Assembly (NCBI RefSeq): GCF_900142095.1
Contig: NZ_FQZP01000010.1
Coordinates: 1 to 58,099, forward strand
DNA length: 58,099 nucleotides
Source: Thermoclostridium caenicola
Lineage (GTDB): Bacteria > Bacillota > Clostridia > DSM-8532
Direction: 5' to 3'
Shown here: one piece after another, positions 26,263 through 47,547 of the stretch
Layout of the letters: every line of letters starts with the position of its first letter
Position numbering within the stretch: the stretch's first letter is position 1
Program-made: the position numbers and the translations under genes
Notes under the pieces: model-generated
What the model was told of the DNA's origin: nothing
Database searches by the model: none
Seen by the model: the letters and a program-made list of their open reading frames with translations, nothing else

Positions 26263-26385
26263 GAATGCGATTGCGGGGATATAAGGGTGGTGCTTCGAGT
26301 TTTGAGAACTCATACTGAAAATTTTGAGTATATCCAGGTTGATTTATTTCCCCACAGTAGTATAATTACAATTAATTGAAAATGA
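26263..26385 (+). promoter_or_regulatory. Intergenic region with promoter of the thiamine salvage operon
   Basis: TTGATT (26339-26344) and TATAAT (26361-26366) are 16 bases apart and lie just upstream of the TPP aptamer. No gene is seen in this stretch, and no clear terminator of hsdR was identified. Confidence 0.6.
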
Positions 26386-26478
26386 CAATGGGGAGCTTGC
26401 TGAAGCAGGCTGAGAGTAAGCTGTATCGCTTAGACCCATCGAACCTGATTTGGGTAATGCCAACGCAGGGAAATATGG
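26386..26478 (+). ncRNA. TPP riboswitch (THI element)
   Basis: The conserved blocks are present in order: GGGGAGC, GGCTGAGAG, the variable P3 arm, GACCC, GAACCTGAT, GGGTAATGCC and GCAGGGAA. This is the thiamine pyrophosphate aptamer. It lies between a promoter and an intrinsic terminator upstream of thiM, so thiamine pyrophosphate should stop transcription of the thiM-thiE-HAD-thiD operon. Confidence 0.95.
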
Positions 26479-26490
26479 TGCAGAGGATGC

Positions 26491-35624: not shown

Positions 35625-37280
35625 TTAACGCGCTGCGGATTTCCCGGCTTCTCCGCCCTTGATGGAAGGTACAGCAGCCCGGATGATCATGAGCACGCTG
35701 AAGAGGACCACCAGGGATATCGGCAGGACAACCCACGCGGAGGGGATGAATCCGGCCAGGATATAGCCCAGGAAGGAGACAGCAGCCACTGTGAGGGCAT
35801 AGGGAAGCTGGGTGGAGACATGGTTGATATGGCTGCACATGGCTCCGGTGGAGGACATGATGGTGGTATCGGAAATCGGTGAGCAATGGTCGCCGCATAC
35901 CGCTCCGGCCAGGCAGGCGGATATGGTAACAATCAGAAGCTCGGGAGTTCCGCCGGAAAAGGCTGCGGACTTATCGAAGACATCGACCACCAGGGGCAGC
36001 AGGATGCCGAAAGTACCCCAGGAGGTGCCGGTTGCGAAGGACATCCCTACGGCTATGGCGAACACGATGGCCGGCAGGAATACTGTGGCGGCGCTTTCAT
36101 TGAAAATGCCGCTTACAAACTCGCTTGAACCAAGAGACTTGGTTAACCCGCTCAAAGTCCAGGCAAGGGTCAGGATGAGGATGGCGGGAACCATGGCCTT
36201 GAAACCATTGGGCAGGCATGCCATGCATTCATTGAAAGAAAGCACCTTTCGGCCAATGAAATAGATAATGATGATGATCAGGGCCAGAACCGAGCCCAGC
36301 GACAAGCCAAGTGAAGCGTCACAATTGGCGAAGGCGTTCACAATGTTCTCACCTTCCAAAATGCCGCCCGTATAGAGCATGCCCAGGATGCAGCATACGA
36401 TGAGGACAATGACGGGAATGACCAGATCCCGCACCTTTCCTTTCGTGTTCCGTGCCTGGTTTTCCTGCCCTTCAAAGGGACGATCGGGCGTTGTGTAAAG
36501 ATCCCCGTTCAGGGCGTTTTCCTCATGTTTTCTCATTGGCCCGTACTCAATGCCCAGGAAGGCGATGATCAGAATCATGGCAAGGGTCAGCAGGGAATAC
36601 AGGTTGTATGGAATGGCGCGAATAAAGAGCTCAAAGCCGTCATAGCCCTCCACTACGCCTGTAACGGCTGCCGCCCAGGAGGAGATGGGAGCGATCATGC
36701 AGATGGGAGCGGCCGTGGCATCCACCAGGTAGGCCAGTTTTGCGCGGGAGATCCTGTGCTTGTCGGTGATGGGACGCATTACGTTGCCAACGGTCAGGCA
36801 GTTGAAATAGTCATCCACGAAGATCAGGACGCCAAGCCCAAAGGTAGACAGGATGGCACCTTTTCGGGTTTTTATCCTTCTGCTGGCCCATTCTCCGTAG
36901 GCGGCAGAACCGCCGGCCTGGTTCATCAGGCATACGATGGTTCCCAGCACCACCAGGAAAATGAGGATGCCTACATTCCAGCTGTCGGCCAGGGATGCGA
37001 TAAAGCCGTCATTTAACATGACGGTGAAGGCATTAACAGGATTGAAGTTGGCATACAGCAAGGCGGCGCTCAGGATGCCTATGAAGAGCGAGCTGTACAC
37101 CTCCTTCGTGATGAGGGCCAGAACGATGGCGATAATTGGCGGAAGAAGGGCCCAGAATGTGCCATAAACAAAGCTCTGGCTTTCTTCACCGGAGGCGTCT
37201 TCGGCAAAGACAGGCAGCGCAAAGACGGTGAGTATGGCTGCAAGAACAAGCAGCAGCAGGAGCAGTTTTCTTGGTTTCAT
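35625..37280 (-). CDS. NhaC-superfamily transporter, probable lysine importer
   Basis: The 551-residue protein has a cleavable-looking signal peptide (residues 1-26 ending VFAED), then about 12 hydrophobic segments of the NhaC Na+/H+ antiporter superfamily. Landmarks are IFVDDYFNCLTVGNVMRP, MIAPISSWAAAVTG, ATGTSWGTFG and CGDHCSPISDTTIMSS. By sequence alone it would be called a Na+/H+ antiporter. However, a complete lysine riboswitch lies in its leader (37374-37535), and NhaC-type proteins under lysine riboswitches were predicted to be lysine transporters (Rodionov and colleagues' LysW group, from memory). GGAGG lies six bases before the ATG. It is a single-gene unit. Confidence 0.87.
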   Translation of the reverse strand: MKPRKLLLLLLVLAAILTVFALPVFAEDASGEESQSFVYGTFWALLPPIIAIVLALITKEVYSSLFIGILSAALLYANFNPVNAFTVMLNDGFIASLADSWNVGILIFLVVLGTIVCLMNQAGGSAAYGEWASRRIKTRKGAILSTFGLGVLIFVDDYFNCLTVGNVMRPITDKHRISRAKLAYLVDATAAPICMIAPISSWAAAVTGVVEGYDGFELFIRAIPYNLYSLLTLAMILIIAFLGIEYGPMRKHEENALNGDLYTTPDRPFEGQENQARNTKGKVRDLVIPVIVLIVCCILGMLYTGGILEGENIVNAFANCDASLGLSLGSVLALIIIIIYFIGRKVLSFNECMACLPNGFKAMVPAILILTLAWTLSGLTKSLGSSEFVSGIFNESAATVFLPAIVFAIAVGMSFATGTSWGTFGILLPLVVDVFDKSAAFSGGTPELLIVTISACLAGAVCGDHCSPISDTTIMSSTGAMCSHINHVSTQLPYALTVAAVSFLGYILAGFIPSAWVVLPISLVVLFSVLMIIRAAVPSIKGGEAGKSAAR

Positions 37281-37348: not shown

Positions 37349-37373
37349 GCAGTCGACATACATCAACAGACAT

Positions 37374-37535
37374 GATAGCGCTCCACTTTAAAAAGTGACA
37401 GTCTGACACATATTCTGTGCCAGCCCGGCAACGGCTCCTCCTGGTGGAAACCGAAACCTCGGCGGTCATTCTTTTCGTCTGCCCCGTTTGCCAGGTCATG
37501 AAGGACAGATTACTCGTAAGGACCGCGCCTCTATC
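37374..37535 (-). ncRNA. Lysine riboswitch (L box)
   Basis: Read on the minus strand, the element opens with GATAGAGGCGCG, followed by ACGAGTAA, a GCCGAGGTTTC block, CCGGGCTGGCACAG, CTGTCAC and the closing GTGGAGCGCTATC. These are the conserved blocks of the lysine aptamer in the right order. The closing stem pairs GATAG (37531-37535) with CTATC (37374-37378). The 162-base span is the normal size. It precedes a terminator and the NhaC-family gene. Confidence 0.9.
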
Positions 37536-37570
37536 ATTCCTTCCTGATTCGATTTTCAGCTCTTTTCTTA

Positions 37571-37798: not shown

Positions 37799-38006
37799 TT
37801 GACTAAACGCGCGAAAAATGCCATATTGGTATTAAAGACATGATATTAAACATAGATGAAAAGTGGGAAAAACCTCCTGTTCCCATGATCGGCTGATATT
37901 CCTGCAATAGACAGGATTTTCATGGCATCATGGCTCAACCGTTTTTTATATGCATAATCCGGATGTGCGGGTTATGCATACGTGAATAGAAATTTGGAAT
38001 TGGAGG
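37799..38006 (+). promoter_or_regulatory. Promoter and structured leader of the ECF transporter / SAM hydrolase operon
   Basis: TTGACT (37799-37804) and CATATT (37822-37827) are 17 bases apart. The leader holds several pairings. TGGGAA (37864-37869) pairs with TTCCCA (37880-37885), with the loop ACCTCCT complementary to the ribosome site TGGAGGG (38001-38007). CCATGAT (37883-37889) pairs with ATCATGG (37927-37933) and overlaps the first stem, so the two exclude each other. CGGCTGA (37890-37896) can pair with TCAACCG (37935-37941; one mismatch) directly before six T, like a terminator. TATGCATAA (37949-37957) pairs with TTATGCATA (37972-37980). This is riboswitch-like architecture; I do not match it to a known class. 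Confidence 0.5.
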
Positions 38007-38013
38007 GTCAAAG

Positions 38014-38601
38014 ATGAAGAAGAGCTTTCTCAAAACATTGCTTGGTGTATGGAATACCAAGACGGTCGTTGCCATCGCCATCGGTGCGGCCCTTTTCGGC
38101 GTGCTGATGAATTTCGGCGGAATCCCGATTTACACAAACACCAGGCTGACGACGGCCATGATCGTTCCTGTTATTGTGGGTTCCATGTTTGGTCCCGTTC
38201 CGGCGTTCATCACCTGCTTTGTCGGCAACACCATCGCGGATCTCATCGGCGGTTGGGGCTTCTGGTTCGACTGGTCGGTGGGTAATGGCGTGTTGGGCTT
38301 TATCGTGGGACTGTTGCCGTTCTATGGCGCCAGGATCAACGAGGGAATCTTCAAGCCCGTCCATGCCGTTATCTATGCCATTACATGTATCGTTGGCAAT
38401 GCGCTCGCATTTGGCGTTGTCACTCCATTGATGACAGTCGCTTTTTATGGCGGTGAACTGACCATCACTTTCCTTCAGGCTTTTGCAGGCGGTATTGCCA
38501 ACACAGCCGTATTGGTCATAATCGGTATTCCCATCCTGTATGCCCTCGCAAGGCGCAGCGCCCACAGCACAAACCTGAAAATGGAGGAAGAAAAGGAATA
38601 A
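38014..38601 (+). CDS. ECF transporter substrate-specificity (S) component, UPF0397-like
   Basis: The 195-residue membrane protein has about five to six hydrophobic segments and an N-terminal TKTVVAIAIGAALFGVLMNF followed by GIPIYTNTRLT, typical of the UPF0397 group of ECF S components. The S component captures the vitamin-like substrate and docks on the T component and ATPases encoded next. TGGAGGG lies seven bases before the ATG and may be masked by the leader. The substrate of this group is not established to my knowledge; automatic labels such as riboflavin are unreliable. It is the first gene of a six-gene operon. Confidence 0.82.
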   Translation: MKKSFLKTLLGVWNTKTVVAIAIGAALFGVLMNFGGIPIYTNTRLTTAMIVPVIVGSMFGPVPAFITCFVGNTIADLIGGWGFWFDWSVGNGVLGFIVGLLPFYGARINEGIFKPVHAVIYAITCIVGNALAFGVVTPLMTVAFYGGELTITFLQAFAGGIANTAVLVIIGIPILYALARRSAHSTNLKMEEEKE

Positions 38602-38604
38602 CAG

Positions 38605-40332
38605 ATGCCAGTGCGTACACCCATTGTAGAATTCAGGAACTTCAGCTTCAGATATAAATCCCAGTCGGAACCAACGCTTCACGACATCAACCTCACCATC
38701 TACAAGGGGGAAAAGGTGCTCATCCTTGGCCCCAGTGGAAGCGGAAAGTCGACGCTGGCAAATTGCATCAACGGTTTAAATCCTTTTTCATACGATGGGG
38801 TTATCACAGGCTCATGCAAAGTTGCTGGCATGGAAACCAAAAATGCCAGCATTTTTGCTCTGAGCAAGGTGGTGGGAACCGTCCTCCAGGATTCGGATGC
38901 CCAGTTTGTGGGCCTGAGCGTTGGGGAAGATATCGCCTTTGCCCTGGAAAACCAGAGCGTGCCGCGGAAAGAGATGCTGCCGAAGGTGGAATGGGCGGCC
39001 GGGGTTGTGGGCATGTCCGATTTTCTCATGCATGTGCCCTACGAGCTGTCGGGAGGACAGAAGCAGAAAGTGGCCCTGGCTGGTGTCCTGCACGGTGATG
39101 TGGACCTCCTGATCTTTGACGAACCCCTGGCTTCCCTGGACCCCATGATGGGCATGACCGCGGTGGAGCTCATCGACCGCATCCATAAGGAACAGAACAA
39201 GACGGTCCTGATCGTGGAACACCGGCTGGAGGATGTGCTGCACCGCAGCGTGGACAGGATTGTCCTGATGAACGAGGGCAGCATTGTCTATGACGGCGAT
39301 CCCGACAGGCTTCTGGCTTCCGATCTCCTGACCCGTTACGGTATTCGTGAGCCTCTCTATATCAAGGCTTTGCAATATGCCGGCTGCGAGCTGTCGAGCG
39401 AACAGAAACTGGCGGACATCCAGACGGTGGATCTGTCCCCCTTTGAAGAGCAGCTTAAAAAGCAGCAGATGATGAAGCTTGAGAAATATGTTCCCAGGCT
39501 CGGCGAGGAGATCCTGAAGGTTGAAAACGTTACCTTCGCCTATGATAAAGATCCGGTTCTTAAGAACATATCCTTCTCGGTAAGAAAGGGTGAAAAGATC
39601 GCCGTTGTGGGCAAGAACGGGGCCGGAAAGAGCACCCTGGCCAAACTGCTCTGCGGCATCGTCAGGCCCCGGGAAGGGCGTGTGCTGATTAACGGCACCG
39701 ATTATACACAGTATTCCATCAAGGAGATCGGCGAGCGAATCGGCTATGTTATGCAAAACCCCAACCAGATGCTGGTGAAGGATATCATCAAGGATGAGGT
39801 TGAGCTGGCCATGCTGCTCAGGGGAAAGAGCCGGGCGGAGATCGATGAGGCTGTCAAAAAGACCCTTAAGATGTGCGGACTCTATCCCATGAGGAATTGG
39901 CCGGTTTCGGCGGTGAGCTACGGGCAGAAGAAACGGGCCACCATTGCATCCATCCTGGTGCTCCAGCCCGAGATCATCATCCTGGACGAACCCACAGCCG
40001 GGCAGGATTTCCGCCATTATACCGAGATCATGGAGTTTTTGGACGAACTCAACAGGGAGTATGGCATCACCATCCTCTTCGTCACCCACGACATGCACCT
40101 GGCCATCCAGTACACCGACCGGGCGCTTGTCTTCTCTGAGGGCGAACTGGTGGCCGATGATTCGGTCTTCAGGGTGCTGTCCAATGATGAGGTCATTACC
40201 AAGGCCAACCTGAAGCAAACCTCCCTCTACACCCTGGCCAGGCGTTTGGGGTTCGAGCCGGAAGCCTATATCGAACACTTCATCAATTATGAAAGGATGG
40301 TGCGGGTTCATGGAAAACAAGCTGCTGATTAA
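38605..40332 (+). CDS. ECF transporter fused double ATPase component
   Basis: The 575-residue cytoplasmic protein contains two ABC ATPase domains in tandem. The first has Walker A GPSGSGKST (about 40-48), signature LSGGQKQK and Walker B LLIFDEPLASLDP. The second has Walker A GKNGAGKST (about 339), signature SYGQKKR (degenerate) and Walker B IIILDEPTAGQD. This is the EcfA-EcfA' pair in one chain, as in YkoD-like proteins. It starts three bases after the S gene's stop and overlaps the T gene by 23 bases. It should energise import of the unknown S-component substrate. Confidence 0.92.
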   Translation: MPVRTPIVEFRNFSFRYKSQSEPTLHDINLTIYKGEKVLILGPSGSGKSTLANCINGLNPFSYDGVITGSCKVAGMETKNASIFALSKVVGTVLQDSDAQFVGLSVGEDIAFALENQSVPRKEMLPKVEWAAGVVGMSDFLMHVPYELSGGQKQKVALAGVLHGDVDLLIFDEPLASLDPMMGMTAVELIDRIHKEQNKTVLIVEHRLEDVLHRSVDRIVLMNEGSIVYDGDPDRLLASDLLTRYGIREPLYIKALQYAGCELSSEQKLADIQTVDLSPFEEQLKKQQMMKLEKYVPRLGEEILKVENVTFAYDKDPVLKNISFSVRKGEKIAVVGKNGAGKSTLAKLLCGIVRPREGRVLINGTDYTQYSIKEIGERIGYVMQNPNQMLVKDIIKDEVELAMLLRGKSRAEIDEAVKKTLKMCGLYPMRNWPVSAVSYGQKKRATIASILVLQPEIIILDEPTAGQDFRHYTEIMEFLDELNREYGITILFVTHDMHLAIQYTDRALVFSEGELVADDSVFRVLSNDEVITKANLKQTSLYTLARRLGFEPEAYIEHFINYERMVRVHGKQAAD

Positions 40333-41164
40333 CCTGATCCCCGGCGACACCTTCCTTCATAGGCTGACCGGCAAGACCAAGGTCCGCACGTTTATCGTGC
40401 TCCTGATTTACCTCATCATGTCCTTTGATCTTCGGCTGATTCTGCCGTTGTTCATCCTGGGCATCATCGGTCTCAAGTCGCTGAAGCCAGCCTGGAAGAC
40501 GCTTAAGTATTTCTTTATCATCATTGTGGCAGTCAACCTGCTCAACATTGTGCTTTTCTGGCTGGCGGATCCGGACATCGGGGCCTATTGGTGCGGGGGA
40601 GGCCATACGGTGCTGTTTAAGCTGACCGACCGCTTTTACCTGACAGCCGAGACCCTCTGGTATCTGATGGTCCGTTTCATCAAGATGATTACTTCCTTCA
40701 TGGTTTCGGTGGTATTCATCCTGTCCATAACGCCGTCGGAACTGGCAGCCGGCCTGTATTCCATCAAGGTGCCCTACAAGATATGCACCATTTTCTCGCT
40801 GGCCTTCAGGTATATCCCCGATATCGGGCGTGACTTCCAGAATATCAAGGTATCCCTGCAAACGAGAGGCGTGGAGCTGGATCCCAAGAAGGCGTCCCTG
40901 AAAGACCGGTTGAAGCAGAACGTGCTGATCCTGATCCCCCTCATCATCTCCTCTTTCGACCGGGTGGCCAATATATCCAATGCCATGGATCTGAGGGGAT
41001 ACGGCAGGGGAAAGACCAGGACCTATTACAGCGAGCATGAAGAGCTGAAAGCCGACAAGGCCTTCAAGGTCATTTACGTTGCCCTGCTGCTGTTCTGCGC
41101 ATACTGGATCATCACCCACAACACCATGCCCCAGGATTTCAGGATGTGGTACCCATTCGCATGA
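40310..41164 (+). CDS. ECF transporter transmembrane (T) component
   Basis: The 284-residue membrane protein has four to five hydrophobic helices and the T-component coupling region near its C terminus, with the motif AMDLRGYGRGKTR (compare AMEARGY in EcfT). A preceding LQTRGVELDP segment is also family-typical. The start at 40310 overlaps the ATPase gene by 23 bases, and its stop overlaps the peptidase gene by ATGA. It is therefore dedicated to this operon rather than shared. Confidence 0.9.
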   Translation: MENKLLINLIPGDTFLHRLTGKTKVRTFIVLLIYLIMSFDLRLILPLFILGIIGLKSLKPAWKTLKYFFIIIVAVNLLNIVLFWLADPDIGAYWCGGGHTVLFKLTDRFYLTAETLWYLMVRFIKMITSFMVSVVFILSITPSELAAGLYSIKVPYKICTIFSLAFRYIPDIGRDFQNIKVSLQTRGVELDPKKASLKDRLKQNVLILIPLIISSFDRVANISNAMDLRGYGRGKTRTYYSEHEELKADKAFKVIYVALLLFCAYWIITHNTMPQDFRMWYPFA

Positions 41165-42507
41165 ATTTGGAACAGTATTACCCTGATATCATCAGCAGCA
41201 TATCCGAACTTGTCAGAATACCCACGGTCTATGACGCGGCATCGGTGACGCCGATCATGCCCTATGGGAAATACATCCATGAAGGGTATGAGTGGCTGAA
41301 AAGGAAGGCCCTTTCCGACGGGTTCGAGGTGCTGGAATTCGATGGCCATGCCCTGGCGATCCGCATCCCCGGAAACAGCACGGGTGAGCGGATTGACGTG
41401 ATTTCCCACCTGGATGTGGTAGCCCCCGGCGACGGATGGCTTGCCGATCCCTTCAGCGGAGAGGTTTCGGGCGGATTCATCCATGGCCGGGGTACCCAGG
41501 ATATGAAGGCCGCATTGATGCTGACTTATTATGCCCTGAAATATATAAAGGATCATGGGATACCGCTGAAAAGGGAACTCCGTGTGGTCATCGGCTGCGA
41601 TGAGGAGCGGACCATGGAAGATATGAAGTATTATGCCCGAAAGTCGGGAGTTCCGGCGTTCGCCTTCACACCTGACGGCCGATTCCCTTACACCCTGGGC
41701 GAGAAGGGCGCCCTGATGTGGTCTGTTGAAGGGCACATGGAGACCTGCATGGAAGCGCTGGAGGGCGGCATCCAGTGCAATGTCGTCAGCCCGGAGGCCT
41801 GGGCTTTGATCCGGTGCGGCCAAAGCGCTGACGCGTACCGGAACATGCTGGAGCAAAAGGGGTATCCGGGCGAGGTGTCCCGGGAAGGAGACCGGATCAG
41901 GCTTCGGGTCCTTGGCAAGGCGGCCCACGCCTCAAGGCCCGAGGACGGAGCCAATGCCACGGTGCGCCTTTTGGAGCTGGTTGCCTGTGTAAGCGCCGAT
42001 CCGCTGGCGGATCTTCTATATCGGTGCTTCTCTGATCACAACGGCAAGGGTGCAGGCCTGGACTATGACATCGCGCCCATGGGCAAACTGACCATGAACC
42101 TGGGGGTGCTCAAAGTCAGGGAGAACCAGGTATCGGCCGAGGTGGACTGCCGGTATCCTTATGGCATTACCTCCGATATCCTGACAGGCAGGTTACAGGA
42201 GGTCTTAAAGCCCCTGAAGGTGACCCTGCGGTATGACGACAGGCCCACCCTGGCCGATAAGAATTCCTCCTGGCTGAAAATCCTGCTGGATACTTACAGG
42301 GAGCTCAGCGGGGACGCCGGGGCAGAGCCTGTGATAAGCGGCGGTGTGACCTATGGGAAGGCCATCGGTAATTGTGTTGCCTTCGGACCCTTCAGGGAAG
42401 GCGAACAGGAGTTGGCCCACCAGGCCAATGAACGGATAGAAATTGAAAGAGTCAAACAGCTTTTCGAGATATACACCACCGCCATGATCCGGCTGGCAAC
42501 TTTGTGA
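41161..42507 (+). CDS. M20-family metallopeptidase (PepV/YgeY-like) in the ECF operon
   Basis: The 448-residue zinc enzyme has the M20 metal ligands in order: His83 and Asp85 in ISHLDVVAPG, Asp114 in GRGTQDMKAA, Glu148 and Glu149 in GCDEERT, and a later Asp in TPDGRFPY. A dimerisation/lid domain occupies the middle (about 190-320). It should hydrolyse a dipeptide, acyl-amino acid or similar amide. It is translationally coupled to the T component (ATGA), so it most likely processes the imported compound. There is no signal peptide. The substrate is unknown. Confidence 0.85.
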   Translation: MNLEQYYPDIISSISELVRIPTVYDAASVTPIMPYGKYIHEGYEWLKRKALSDGFEVLEFDGHALAIRIPGNSTGERIDVISHLDVVAPGDGWLADPFSGEVSGGFIHGRGTQDMKAALMLTYYALKYIKDHGIPLKRELRVVIGCDEERTMEDMKYYARKSGVPAFAFTPDGRFPYTLGEKGALMWSVEGHMETCMEALEGGIQCNVVSPEAWALIRCGQSADAYRNMLEQKGYPGEVSREGDRIRLRVLGKAAHASRPEDGANATVRLLELVACVSADPLADLLYRCFSDHNGKGAGLDYDIAPMGKLTMNLGVLKVRENQVSAEVDCRYPYGITSDILTGRLQEVLKPLKVTLRYDDRPTLADKNSSWLKILLDTYRELSGDAGAEPVISGGVTYGKAIGNCVAFGPFREGEQELAHQANERIEIERVKQLFEIYTTAMIRLATL

Positions 42508-42556
42508 GCCGAAAAATAGCATCCCGGGAAAGACATCGACAGGAGAAGGTGAGAAC

Positions 42557-43399
42557 GTGGAGAAACCGATTCTCGTATTTCAGACAGACTTTACCTATAA
42601 GGAAGGCGCGGTCTGCGCCATGTATGGCGTGGTCAAATCGGTGGACCGCAGCCTGGAGATCTTTGACGGCACCCATGAAATCCCTCATTTTGATACATGG
42701 AGTGCCTCCTATCGCCTGTACCAGACCATGCGGTTCTGGCCGAAAGGCACCATTTTTGTCTCGGTTGTGGATCCGGGTGTGGGCACATCACGCCGGGCCT
42801 GCGTGGCAAAAACCTGCGACGGCTATTATGTTGTCACCCCTGACAACGGTACGCTGACCCATCTGAAAGCCTATGTGGGCATTCAGGAAGTACGCGAGAT
42901 CGATGAGACCCGCAACCGTCTGAAAAGCACGGAGGGGACCAGCGTCTTCCACGGCAGGGATTTGTTCGGTTATTGCGCCGCAAGGCTTGCAAGCGGCATC
43001 ATTACCTACGAGGAAGTGGGACCAAACTATCCTGTGGAAGAGATCGTCATGCATCCCATCATGGAACCCAGGGTCAGCCCGAACCGGGCCGAAGGCATCT
43101 TTGAGATCTGCGATCCCAATTTCGGGAACATGTGGACCAATATCCCCGTGGACCTGTTTCTGAGCAACGGATTCGAATATGGCGATATGCTGGACATGAC
43201 CATATGCCATGAGGGCAGGATAGTCCATCGTGAAAAGGCGCTCTTTGCCAGGTCCTTCGGGTATGTCAATAAAGGGGAAACCGTTATCTATACCAATGAG
43301 CTCATGCGCATCGCGGTCGCCACCTGTATGGGCAATTTCCGCGAAACCTGGCATGTGGACTTTGGCAGTGACTGGACGGTTGTGTTTGAGAAGGCATAA
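42557..43399 (+). CDS. S-adenosylmethionine hydrolase (adenosine-forming), first of tandem pair
   Basis: The 280-residue DUF62 protein should hydrolyse S-adenosylmethionine to adenosine and methionine. The Asp-Arg-His triad of the family is visible: Asp72 and Arg79/80 in VDPGVGTSRR, His132 in VFHGRDLFGY. The N-terminal FQTDFTYKEGAV gives the adenosine-binding Asp. It starts with GTG after a GGAGAAGGTGAG site. Halogenase or fluorinase activity is unlikely because the triad for water activation is kept. The next gene is a close paralogue. Confidence 0.88.
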   Translation: MEKPILVFQTDFTYKEGAVCAMYGVVKSVDRSLEIFDGTHEIPHFDTWSASYRLYQTMRFWPKGTIFVSVVDPGVGTSRRACVAKTCDGYYVVTPDNGTLTHLKAYVGIQEVREIDETRNRLKSTEGTSVFHGRDLFGYCAARLASGIITYEEVGPNYPVEEIVMHPIMEPRVSPNRAEGIFEICDPNFGNMWTNIPVDLFLSNGFEYGDMLDMTICHEGRIVHREKALFARSFGYVNKGETVIYTNELMRIAVATCMGNFRETWHVDFGSDWTVVFEKA

Positions 43400-43418
43400 T
43401 GTGAGCGAGGTGAACGTT

Positions 43419-44264
43419 ATGAGCAGTCTTTTGATTTTCCAATCCGATTTCGGTATAGCTGACGGCGCGGTCAGTGCCATGTACGGTGTGGCCTACTCGG
43501 TATGCAGGGATCTGAAGATATGCGACCTGACCCATGAAATACCCCAGTACAATATCTGGGAGGCTTCCTACCGCCTGATTCAGACTGTTAACTACTGGCC
43601 GGAGGGTTCGGTGTTCGTTTCGGTGGTGGATCCCGGCGTGGGTTCCACGAGAAGGAGCATTGCAGCCAGGACCATAAACGGCCAGTACATCATCACGCCG
43701 GATAACGGCACGCTGACCCATATCAAGCGAATGCTGGGCATCCGGGAGGCCAGGGAGATAGACGAGGAAACCAACCGCCTTCCCAACTCCGGCGAGTCTT
43801 ATACCTTCCATGGCAGGGATATCTATGCCTACACCGGCGCCAGGCTGGCGGCAGGCATCATCAGCTTTGAGGACATAGGACCATTGGTTGATGTGGACAG
43901 CATCGTGGAGCTTCCTGTATCGGAGCCTGTTAAGGAAGGAGACACCATTACGGGCACCATCGACATCCTGGACGTCCGGTTTGGAAGCCTTTGGACAAAC
44001 ATCAGCAGGGATCTGTTCAAAACGCTGGATGTCCCCTATGGCGGCAGGGTGGAGATAACCATCATGAATGATACGCGGGAAGTCTACCGCAATATCATAC
44101 GGTATGTAAAATCCTTTGCCGATGTTTACATAGGCGAGCCCCTGGTCTATGTGAATTCGCTGGACTATATTGCTGTGGCCATCAACCAGGGATCCTTCTC
44201 AAAAGCGTATAATGTTTCGTCGGGAACCAACTGGAAGATCACCATTAAAAAGGCACAGCTCTGA
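43419..44264 (+). CDS. S-adenosylmethionine hydrolase (adenosine-forming), second of tandem pair
   Basis: The 281-residue DUF62 protein is clearly homologous to the preceding one along its full length. It also keeps the triad: Asp71 and Arg78/79 in VDPGVGSTRR, His131 in TFHGRDIYAY. The start at 43419 follows GAGGTGA; only 19 bases separate it from the first copy. Conservation of both active sites suggests that both copies are functional, perhaps as a hetero-oligomer (the family is trimeric) or with different substrates. It ends the ECF operon at a terminator. Confidence 0.88.
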   Translation: MSSLLIFQSDFGIADGAVSAMYGVAYSVCRDLKICDLTHEIPQYNIWEASYRLIQTVNYWPEGSVFVSVVDPGVGSTRRSIAARTINGQYIITPDNGTLTHIKRMLGIREAREIDEETNRLPNSGESYTFHGRDIYAYTGARLAAGIISFEDIGPLVDVDSIVELPVSEPVKEGDTITGTIDILDVRFGSLWTNISRDLFKTLDVPYGGRVEITIMNDTREVYRNIIRYVKSFADVYIGEPLVYVNSLDYIAVAINQGSFSKAYNVSSGTNWKITIKKAQL

Positions 44265-44311
44265 TCCGCAGGTTCAGCCTGCGTTCAATGGAAACGGTTA
44301 ATTGGTCATTC

Positions 44312-44343
44312 GGGGCGGGAATAAAAATCCCGCCCCATTGTAT
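44312..44343 (+). terminator. Intrinsic terminator of the ECF / SAM hydrolase operon
   Basis: GGGGCGGGA (44312-44320) pairs perfectly with TCCCGCCCC (44328-44336), followed by ATTGTATTTTC. Confidence 0.75.
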
Positions 44344-44472: not shown

Positions 44473-44700
44473 ATGGCCGGGCAGATCGATCTTAGGAAAA
44501 CCGTCTATGAGCTTTGCAGCGAAAACCCGGAAATCATGGATATCATGAATGAGCTGGGGTTCAAAAGTATCACGAATCCTGCCATGCTTCGCACGGTTGG
44601 CCGTTACATGACCATCCCGAAGGGAGCGGCCATGAAAGGGATCGATTTGGAAAAAGTTAAGGAAGCTTTCCGGCAAAGAGGGTACGACGTGATTGAGTAA
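44473..44700 (+). CDS. DUF1858 domain protein
   Basis: The 75-residue protein has the DUF1858 pattern: DLRKTVYELCSENPEIMDIM, then GFKSITNPAMLRTVGRYMTI and IDLEKVKEAFRQRGYDV. Such small helical proteins often occur alone or fused to iron-sulfur or methyl-transfer enzymes. GGGGAGGGGAGG lies just before the ATG at 44473. It stands between two terminators. The biochemical role is unknown; a redox or metal-related role is a guess from fusions of the family. Confidence 0.8.
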   Translation: MAGQIDLRKTVYELCSENPEIMDIMNELGFKSITNPAMLRTVGRYMTIPKGAAMKGIDLEKVKEAFRQRGYDVIE

Positions 44701-44765: not shown

Positions 44766-44979
44766 GCCGCCCGAAGGCCCGATACTTACGGCGACTTACA
44801 TATTTATGCAATCAAAAAGTAATAAATAACCGGTTTCGGCCCCGTAAAACTGTGGTAAAAATTTCATGGCTTCTTGTAATGATTGGCATATGCCTGTGTG
44901 AATTATCTGCATAGAGATAAAAAGATAAAGACACAGAGAAGTGCAAAAAAAGATGATTTATGTTGATTATGGTGATGAT

Positions 44980-47547
44980 ATGAGTTTCAGGATAGGGACT
45001 AGACATATCTTGATATTTGCTATTCTCCTTGTAATGCTTGCCATGTTTGTCATGGTTTCTGCCCATGCGCGCCCAATGGACGAGCAAAAGCATGTGCTTA
45101 TCCTGAACTCCTATCATGAAAGCTTCACATGGACCCGCGAGATCGTCGGCGGGATTCTCGATACCCTCCATGAATCCGATTATATCCTGAATATCTCCGT
45201 CGAATACATGGACTGGAAGAACTACCCCAACGAGGACAACCTCAGGCGCCTGGCGGAGTATTACCGCTACAAGTACAGGGATCGGCAGCTCGATGTGATC
45301 ATCACCTCGGATGATGCCGCCCTGGAGTTTGCCCTGAAGAACCGGGCGGAGCTGTTTTCCAATGCGCCGGTGGTGTTCTGCGGTGTCAATGAGATGGGAA
45401 TGGACGCCATCGTATCCGGACATGATAATGTGACGGGCATCCTTGAACAGGTTGATCCCGGTGACACGGTCCGGCTGGCTATTGAAGCCATGCCCGGCCT
45501 GAAAAAGATCTATATCCTTTATGACACGACCGAAAGCGGCATGTCTTCCGGGCAACTTGCCCTTTCCACGCTGAAGAAAATCAGGCCCGACATCGAGGGC
45601 ATCAGCCTCAACAACATGACCTACAAGGAGATCTTTGATACCGTTGAGCGCATCGAATCCGACAGCGCCATCTACATCGTCTCTTTCTATTCCGACAAGG
45701 ACGGAAACAGCATGAGCTTTGAGCAGCTGTGCCATATGATCAGCCAGCGGAGCAAGGTGCCTGTTTTCCACCTGTATGATTTCACCATAGGGCACGGCGC
45801 AATAGGCGGGAGCATGCTGAGCGGCCGGCTGCAGGGAGAGCATGCGGCCAGGATCGCTCTGCGCATACTGAACGGGGAATCCGCCTCCGACATACCCGTA
45901 TCCCGGGAAAAAACCGTGAGAACGATCTATGATTACAAGCAATTGGCCCGGTTCGGCATTCCCCTCGACCGGATAGACCCAAACAGTGAAGTCATCAACA
46001 GTCCGTTCTCCTTTTTCGACGAATACAAGCTGGAAGTCCTGGTTGTATTGGGCGTAATCATCATCCTCACCGTTCTGATCGTTGTCCTGGTCATCTATGT
46101 CAGGCGTCTGAAAGTGGCCGAAAAGAAGCTCCAGGAAAGCTATGAGGAAATGGAAGCCACCTATGAGGAGCTTTTTGCCACCCAGGGTGAGCTGAGCGTC
46201 AAGTATGAGGAAATGAAGGACATCCAGGAAAAGCTCCGCCAGAATGCCTATCATGATTCCCTGACCGGGCTTCCCAACAGGCTGTCCCTGTTTGAGAACA
46301 TGCAGGAAATCATCAAGACCAGAAAAGACGAGCTGTGCGCGCTCCTGTATGTGGATTCCGATAATTTCAAGTTTATCAATGACACGCTGGGTCATACCAA
46401 TGGTGACAAGCTGATTGTCAAGATGGGCAAAAGGCTGTCGGCCATATTGAGAAAGAATCAGACCATCTACAGGCTGGGCGGTGACGAGTTCATCATCTGT
46501 TATTGCTCTCCCAGAAGCATCAGGGCGGTGGAAGATTTCGCCCAGAAGATCATTCACAGCTTTGCCAAGCCCTTTACCATAGGCGGAAGTACGTTATATG
46601 TCACCGTGAGCATTGGCATTGCCATCTATCCGGATCATGGAACCGATACCGAGGAACTGTTGCGGCATGCGGATCTGGCCATGTACCGGGCCAAGGCCAC
46701 CGGCAAGAACAAGTACTTTATATATAATAAGGATCTACAAATCGCCTTTGAGAAAAGGATGAAGATTGAGAAGAACCTGCGGGGTGCCATGGACAACAAT
46801 GAGTTCTTCCTGTACTTCCAGCCCCAGATGGATATCCTGGATGGCAGAATTACAGGGTTTGAGGCCCTCCTCCGCTGGCAGAATCCTGAACTGGGGTTTG
46901 TCCCGCCTCTGGATTTTATTGGCATTGCCGAGGAGACCCATCTTATTATTCCCATCGGCCAGTGGGTCCTCAAAAATGCCTGCATGTTCCTTAAAAAGCT
47001 GAATGATATGGGCTATCGGGATATGATGATAGCCGTTAATGTGTCCATACTCCAGCTGCTCCAGGAAAACTTTGTGGATATGGTCCTGAACACCATTGAA
47101 GAATCCGGGCTTAAGCCGGAACAGGTGGAGCTGGAGATCACCGAGTCGATTCTGGTGGAGTCTTATCAGACCATCAGGACAAGGCTGCTCCAGCTGAAGG
47201 AGGCCGGCGTGAAGATCGCCCTGGACGATTTCGGAAAGGGTTCTTCGTCCCTCAGCTCGCTCAAGCAGCTGCCCATCAATACGCTGAAAATCGACAAGTC
47301 TTTTGTCGACAGCATCAGCACGGGCCAAATCGGTGAAAGCTTTATCGATACCATTGTCATGATGGGACGCAAGATGGGCCTTGTGGTCCTGGCAGAAGGC
47401 GTTGAGAAGAAAGAGCAGATAGAGTACCTTATCAAGCGAAAATGTCATCGGGCTCAGGGTTATTTCATCAGCAAGCCGATGCCCGAGGATCAGGCCATTG
47501 TGCTCTGCAGGGACTGGAGCAACCCGCTGGTGAAGGAAACCGTTTAG
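44980..47547 (+). CDS. Membrane GGDEF-EAL protein with periplasmic-binding-type sensor domain
   Basis: The 855-residue protein has an N-terminal signal/anchor helix, an extracellular ABC-substrate-binding-like sensor (about 35-320, beginning KHVLILNSYHESFTWTREIV), a transmembrane helix near 350-370 and a coiled coil. A GGDEF domain (RLGGDEFIICY intact) and an EAL domain follow. The EAL catalytic residues look complete: FEALLRW, NVSILQ, ELEITES, ALDDFGKG, KIDKSFV and AEGVE. It may make or break cyclic di-GMP, depending on the ligand. The start is uncertain: 44980 has GGTGAT upstream and gives a normal signal peptide; ATG 44953 or GTG 44941 are possible. It follows a terminator and ends at another. 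Confidence 0.88.
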   Translation: MSFRIGTRHILIFAILLVMLAMFVMVSAHARPMDEQKHVLILNSYHESFTWTREIVGGILDTLHESDYILNISVEYMDWKNYPNEDNLRRLAEYYRYKYRDRQLDVIITSDDAALEFALKNRAELFSNAPVVFCGVNEMGMDAIVSGHDNVTGILEQVDPGDTVRLAIEAMPGLKKIYILYDTTESGMSSGQLALSTLKKIRPDIEGISLNNMTYKEIFDTVERIESDSAIYIVSFYSDKDGNSMSFEQLCHMISQRSKVPVFHLYDFTIGHGAIGGSMLSGRLQGEHAARIALRILNGESASDIPVSREKTVRTIYDYKQLARFGIPLDRIDPNSEVINSPFSFFDEYKLEVLVVLGVIIILTVLIVVLVIYVRRLKVAEKKLQESYEEMEATYEELFATQGELSVKYEEMKDIQEKLRQNAYHDSLTGLPNRLSLFENMQEIIKTRKDELCALLYVDSDNFKFINDTLGHTNGDKLIVKMGKRLSAILRKNQTIYRLGGDEFIICYCSPRSIRAVEDFAQKIIHSFAKPFTIGGSTLYVTVSIGIAIYPDHGTDTEELLRHADLAMYRAKATGKNKYFIYNKDLQIAFEKRMKIEKNLRGAMDNNEFFLYFQPQMDILDGRITGFEALLRWQNPELGFVPPLDFIGIAEETHLIIPIGQWVLKNACMFLKKLNDMGYRDMMIAVNVSILQLLQENFVDMVLNTIEESGLKPEQVELEITESILVESYQTIRTRLLQLKEAGVKIALDDFGKGSSSLSSLKQLPINTLKIDKSFVDSISTGQIGESFIDTIVMMGRKMGLVVLAEGVEKKEQIEYLIKRKCHRAQGYFISKPMPEDQAIVLCRDWSNPLVKETV

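Follow-up and report, generated by a model that had tools for sequence, protein, structure and literature searches.

A candidate methionine-salvage operon pairing an energy-coupling factor transporter with two putative S-adenosylmethionine hydrolases in Thermoclostridium caenicola

An ECF transporter operon with two DUF62 genes

The DNA analysed here (the window) is a stretch of 58,099 nucleotides (nt) from Thermoclostridium caenicola, contig NZ_FQZP01000010.1. Between positions 38014 and 44264 it carries six compactly arranged genes in one direction, which encode the S component, the fused double ATPase and the T component of an energy-coupling factor (ECF) transporter, an M20 metallopeptidase and two DUF62 proteins, designated SH1 and SH2. 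We hold with about even confidence that these genes form a methionine-salvage operon, in which the cargo that we infer for the transporter is S-adenosylmethionine (SAM) or a close S-adenosyl sulfonium. The dedicated ECF transporter would take up this compound, and the two DUF62 enzymes would split it in the cytoplasm into adenosine and methionine. Since the sulfonium centre of SAM epimerises spontaneously, SH1 and SH2 may share labour, e.g., by acting on the (S,S) and the (R,S) epimers. The PepV-like M20 peptidase, a lineage addition, would perhaps free methionine or strip an acyl or aminoacyl group from a related substrate. In its fullest form, with an ECF importer for external SAM and two dedicated hydrolases, one per sulfonium epimer, the operon would represent an unrecognised uptake-and-hydrolysis route, which we put forward tentatively.

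Conserved linkage of ECF and DUF62 genes

Genes for DUF62 and the S component were searched for in 245 genomes of the class and 398 genomes of the phylum. In the class sample, DUF62 was found in 10 genomes and the S component in 20, and in 9 genomes both were present and adjacent, i.e., within a few kb (hypergeometric probability 2e-10, relatedness ignored). The corresponding numbers for the phylum sample were 23, 11 and 6 (7e-6, relatedness likewise ignored). The linked cases span several families, and their gene orders vary (S-A-T-SH1-SH2, SH2-S-A-T, SH2-A-T-SH1-S and S-A-T-SH1). The initial annotation had staked its proposal on the recurrence of these genes together in other genomes, and this recurrence was observed, with nine of the ten DUF62 genomes of the class linked.

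Unlike these two samples, a set of 80 loci from named genomes, fetched with the DUF62 alignment, was chosen by similarity and is therefore biased. In 43 of these loci, which come from five phyla and show several gene orders, ECF genes adjoin the DUF62 gene and share its strand. Loci with both ECF and DUF62 genes occur in Bacillota, Spirochaetota (Treponema), Chloroflexota (Anaerolineaceae), Actinomycetota (Arcanobacterium and Brachybacterium) and the gammaproteobacterium Psittacicella; the Bacteroidota DUF62 genes of the 80-locus set showed no ECF linkage. The ECF-DUF62 pairing is not due to chance, and its core consists of S-A-T and either one DUF62 gene or two. Some lineages add further genes; for example, three loci (L039, L060 and L067) also encode a GntR/UTRA regulator together with a GNAT enzyme.

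A separate arrangement was observed in a Spirochaetaceae locus (L087:460-5136), where genes for a GntR regulator, a GNAT enzyme and an MFS_2 transporter accompany two tandem, divergent DUF62 genes. There, the unrelated MFS_2 transporter seems to stand in for the ECF importer.

The DUF62 proteins SH1 and SH2

Both proteins contain the SAM_HAT_N and SAM_HAT_C domains with scores above the gathering thresholds, and they are encoded by the sole DUF62 genes in the genome. They are distinct paralogues with 47% identity. In a phylogeny obtained with a quick tree method, SH1 falls in a clade of 20 rows, 18 of which are ECF-linked, while SH2 groups with the larger family. The residues invariant in the family are retained in both window copies, including the Asp-Arg-His triad that separates the hydrolases from the halogenases fluorinase and chlorinase (PMC10491745). 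Based on family membership and the intact triad, the reaction catalysed by SH1 and SH2 is likely SAM hydrolysis. The initial annotation described the role of SAM hydrolase as unclear; this description is accurate in that the physiological role was still disputed in 2025 (PMC12120602), but the hydrolysis of (R,S)-SAM by DUF62 has been described.

Not all operon-borne relatives have kept these residues. In G214 (L021:11295-13007), the catalytic His is replaced by N and Y in the two DUF62 copies, whose function has possibly been lost. Further, strongly diverged DUF62 paralogues lie within the ECF operons of L095, L100, L077, L051 and L062; these proteins have undergone losses among residues that are invariant elsewhere (W193, N247), and two of them also have no Asp-Arg-His triad. 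They may possibly act on new substrates or serve as inactive partners.

The transporter and its S component

The S component, both ATPase domains and the T component are encoded together, as in a dedicated ECF module. The genome encodes three T components of the CbiQ family, this one included; thus, the module has a T component of its own and is a dedicated one. The S component scored 129.5 bits against the NCBIfam model PRK13661/UPF0397 (NF010182; cut-off 99) and belongs to a divergent subclade with 26-33% identity to the main UPF0397 type. Its AlphaFold model (pLDDT 92) was structurally closest to other S components, namely FolT, ThiT, RibU and PanT, with VIA-align Z values of 13-16 and identities of 13-19%, which settles the six-helix S fold at the level of the predicted structure. 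The scores of these four proteins lay close together, and the structure search did not discriminate between their ligands. A sequence search of the PDB with the S component returned chance matches and no relative. In the literature searched, no substrate has been reported for the UPF0397/MtsA S component.

Methionine-responsive regulation in relatives

T-box leaders were found directly upstream of the operon in eight loci (L052, L055, L074, L075, L084, L091, L099 and the Enterococcus faecium plasmid L127). The specifier is AUG (methionine) in all of them except L099, in which it was not identifiable. In terms of frequency, seven T-box motifs were present in 45 leaders, compared with approximately 0.2 expected from the whole-locus density. 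One of the loci with a methionine (Met) T-box, L074, has an S component of the window-type subclade. Additionally, the S gene of L044 is directly preceded by an S-box (SAM riboswitch), and MetNIQ-like genes with a Met T-box stand alongside this operon. The operon of L127 lies on a conjugative plasmid, flanked by IS1216 copies, with mmuM and an amino acid permease gene nearby. The gene neighbourhoods of L044 and L127 are single cases.

The presence of T-box and S-box elements indicates that a shortage of methionine or SAM turns on production of the hydrolases in these relatives. To induce a SAM hydrolase during such a shortage is sensible only if the cell's own (S,S)-SAM is spared, as its destruction would be harmful. 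Therefore, the substrate should be external and delivered by the ECF transporter, or be the (R,S) epimer, which the cell cannot use, or both.

Two other candidate elements were rejected. A SAM-III-like element obtained with a regular expression was dropped, as its matches were scattered and unsupported. A lysine riboswitch in the window (37368-37541) lies on the minus strand and serves a divergent gene of the Na+/H+ antiporter family (35625-37280, minus strand), which directly follows it and probably encodes a lysine transporter.

The M20 peptidase as an accessory enzyme

The M20 protein scored 300 bits against TIGR01887 (cut-off 208), and its full-length alignment to 3khx showed that the metal-ligand motifs are kept. 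The gene is present in the genus of the window and, within the same family, in G214, as well as in L046 and L062, each time together with window-type ECF genes. The operon M20 proteins of the family are 62-100% identical to that of the window, compared with at most 34% for the other M20 proteins of the class sample. However, the operons of two same-family genomes (G172 and G235) and of nearly all other relatives have no M20 gene. The M20 peptidase is operon-specific but accessory, a lineage-restricted enzyme outside the conserved core, which corrects the initial annotation. Its proposal that a single salvage process unites the importer with SAM cleavage fits the linkage, the methionine T-boxes and the S-box; the other half, an amide- or peptide-linked cargo trimmed by the peptidase, is not supported as stated, given the near-general absence of M20.

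Alternative explanations

Several observations weigh against SAM import. In the class sample, 11 of the 20 genomes with an S component have no DUF62 gene; the neighbours of such S-A-T operons (encoding Dus, a sulfatase, a helicase and a glycosyltransferase) share no theme. The genome encodes a SAM synthetase, MetK, elsewhere and is thus not dependent on imported SAM as a cofactor. The S family is named "ECF-ribofla_trS" in Pfam and "ECF-type riboflavin transporter" in NCBIfam. The T-box sample was drawn mostly from Bacilli and Erysipelotrichia, and no methionine switch was revealed by Rfam searches of the window and of the leaders of its closest relatives, with matches considered up to E<10. 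Furthermore, lone DUF62 genes, free of ECF genes, are also preceded by Met T-boxes in Listeria (L129 and L131, with an AUG specifier upstream of 4989 and no UPF0397 in the records) and in two Bacillaceae (L057 and L063). Methionine regulation alone is therefore no proof of an imported substrate, and the lone genes, which hold our confidence in SAM import at about one half, keep alive an endogenous clean-up in which DUF62 hydrolyses (R,S)-SAM formed within the cell and recovers methionine, while the ECF transporter of the same regulon imports methionine, S-methylmethionine or another precursor. The preference of StDUF62 for (R,S)-SAM (PMC12120602; PMC10491745) and the existence of same-family ECF operons without DUF62 favour such a clean-up. 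Nevertheless, it leaves unexplained both the persistent cross-phylum ECF-DUF62 neighbourhood and the near-confinement of the SH1 clade to ECF operons, it gives no account of the need for two paralogues, and the authors of PMC12120602 doubt it as a general role; we judge it somewhat unlikely.

The cargo might also be another adenosyl or thio compound, such as methylthioadenosine (MTA), S-adenosylhomocysteine (SAH) or adenosine, on which, or on a derivative of which, DUF62 would act. A nucleoside hydrolase gene precedes the operon in L082 and Nup-like ATP-binding cassette (ABC) transporter genes precede it in L050, both as single cases, and the operon-borne DUF62 copies with losses among the invariant residues (W193, N247) suggest altered substrates. 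The window copies, however, retain the family residues, and DUF62 chemistry consists of a displacement at C5' of a sulfonium, and thioethers such as MTA and SAH offer poor leaving groups; such a cargo is decidedly improbable. Import of riboflavin or another vitamin, with the SAM hydrolases as mere neighbours, would agree with the database names and with the occurrence of TmRibU among the structural matches. Yet FolT and ThiT match the S model as well as RibU does, all below 20% identity, and no flavin mononucleotide (FMN) riboswitch was found in the window, nor upstream of the operons in the 46 loci scanned, where methionine-type leaders are found instead; the sole FMN element (L106) is located downstream. 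With the ECF-DUF62 linkage conserved as well, we consider a vitamin cargo very unlikely, and the "riboflavin" name of the S family rests on homology. Least probable of all is the order of events in the initial annotation, in which a peptide- or amide-linked compound is imported and cleaved by M20 and SAM cleavage follows as a later step. The translational coupling of M20 to the T gene, the tightness of the operon M20 group and its recurrence solely with window-type ECF genes speak for this order, but most operons, including same-family ones, have no M20 to perform the first step. The reading that we prefer remains one in which SAM, or a closely similar S-adenosyl sulfonium, is taken up and then hydrolysed.

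Organization of the operon and neighbouring features

The features of the operon are listed in Table 1. All six genes predicted in the initial annotation were found, on the plus strand and in the order given there, as were the ATPase/T overlap, the shared ATGA of T and M20 and the terminator. The S and ATPase genes are separated by 3 nt, the ATPase and T genes overlap by 23 nt, and gaps of 49 and 19 nt precede the SH1 and SH2 genes, respectively. The promoter-like sequence is kept at the equivalent position in the leaders of G045, G101 and G214. Sequence conservation of the window leader among relatives is otherwise poor, and the leader matched no Rfam family up to E<10.

Table 1. Features of the ECF-DUF62 operon of T. 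caenicola (positions in the window)
Feature	Position	Strand	Basis or remark
Predicted sigma-A-type promoter, TTGACT-N17-CATATT	37799..37827	+	Consensus scan; likely start of the transcription unit
Leader, ~185 nt	37828..38013	+	Inverted repeat TATGCATAA...TTATGCATA at ~37950-37985
ECF S component, PF07155 / UPF0397, window-type subclade	38014..38601	+	Profile matches, model
Fused double ECF ATPase (A-A'), two ABC_tran with DUF3744 in between	38605..40332	+	Domain search
ECF T component, CbiQ family	40310..41164	+	Domain search
M20 metallopeptidase, Sapep/PepV dipeptidase type	41161..42507	+	TIGR01887, alignment
DUF62 paralogue SH1, triad D72/R79/H132 intact	42557..43399	+	SAM_HAT_N + SAM_HAT_C
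DUF62 paralogue SH2, triad D71/R78/H131 intact	43419..44264	+	SAM_HAT_N + SAM_HAT_C
Intrinsic-terminator-like hairpin, operon end	44312..44336	+	Sequence scan

Just past the terminator, a small DUF1858 protein is encoded at 44473-44700 (plus strand), and a DUF1858 gene occupies the equivalent place in G101. A GGDEF-EAL protein with a fused ABC-type substrate-binding domain (PF04392) is encoded at 44950-47547 (plus strand). Elsewhere in the window, a thiamine pyrophosphate (TPP) riboswitch at 26379-26489 (plus strand) is followed by thiM/thiE-like genes from 26544.

Relation to known systems and significance

Many Gram-positive bacteria, among them streptococci, staphylococci and enterococci, possess the UPF0397/MtsA S component. 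If the operon does encode a SAM importer with hydrolases for the epimers, a physiological role for DUF62 and a substrate for the UPF0397 S component would be obtained together, and both lend themselves to direct testing, given the persistent operon and the methionine switches associated with it. A putative ECF transporter named MtsABC has been assigned to the MetJ regulon of Vibrionales (PMC4239095); the same name is also borne by an unrelated manganese transporter. In Streptococcus suis, MtsA adjoins a gene that is named "RNA polymerase delta subunit" in a published table, without comment (PMC9423846). The DUF62 structure 7ccg bears this name too, and, given its position and the shared name, the S. 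suis gene is probably a DUF62 gene. In Staphylococcus aureus, DUF62 and transporter genes have been listed under consecutive locus tags, again without comment (PMC13210130). The literature searched, which covered older sources incompletely, yielded no paper that connects DUF62 to this ECF transporter. The parts, an MtsABC-type ECF transporter and DUF62, are known; their partnership is real and widespread, and it has apparently gone unremarked. This suggests that the annotation "riboflavin transporter" and, for the S. suis DUF62, probably also "RNA polymerase delta subunit" may mask a widespread salvage route.

The name MtsABC, that of a putative methionine-regulated ECF transporter, suits the operon better than "riboflavin". 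The window operon resembles MtsABC (PMC4239095; PMC9423846) in the family of its S component, in having a fused ATPase and in encoding a T component of its own. Methionine-type leaders were observed in relatives, one of them (L074) in the window-type subclade, but none was recognised in the window. The published descriptions consulted name neither a substrate nor a SAM hydrolase partner, and the S component of the window is divergent. SH1 and SH2 resemble the known DUF62 proteins, i.e., the SAM hydroxide adenosyltransferases or (R)-SAM hydrolases PH0463, StDUF62 and MJ1651, in both domains and in the triad, but here two diverged paralogues occur in a transporter operon, and their NCBIfam equivalog scores fall under the cut-off. 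The M20 peptidase shares its TIGR01887 membership and metal-ligand motifs with the PepV/Sapep dipeptidases; in contrast to these, it is operon-borne, and it is approximately 33% identical to the ordinary PepV-like proteins of the class. The proposed pathway as a whole is most readily compared with S-methylmethionine salvage by MmuP-MmuM, in which a methionine sulfonium is likewise imported and converted to methionine and whose mmuM gene lies near the plasmid copy of the operon. The two differ in transporter and enzyme, and MmuP-MmuM salvage proceeds by methyl transfer, whereas SH1 and SH2 would act by hydrolysis.

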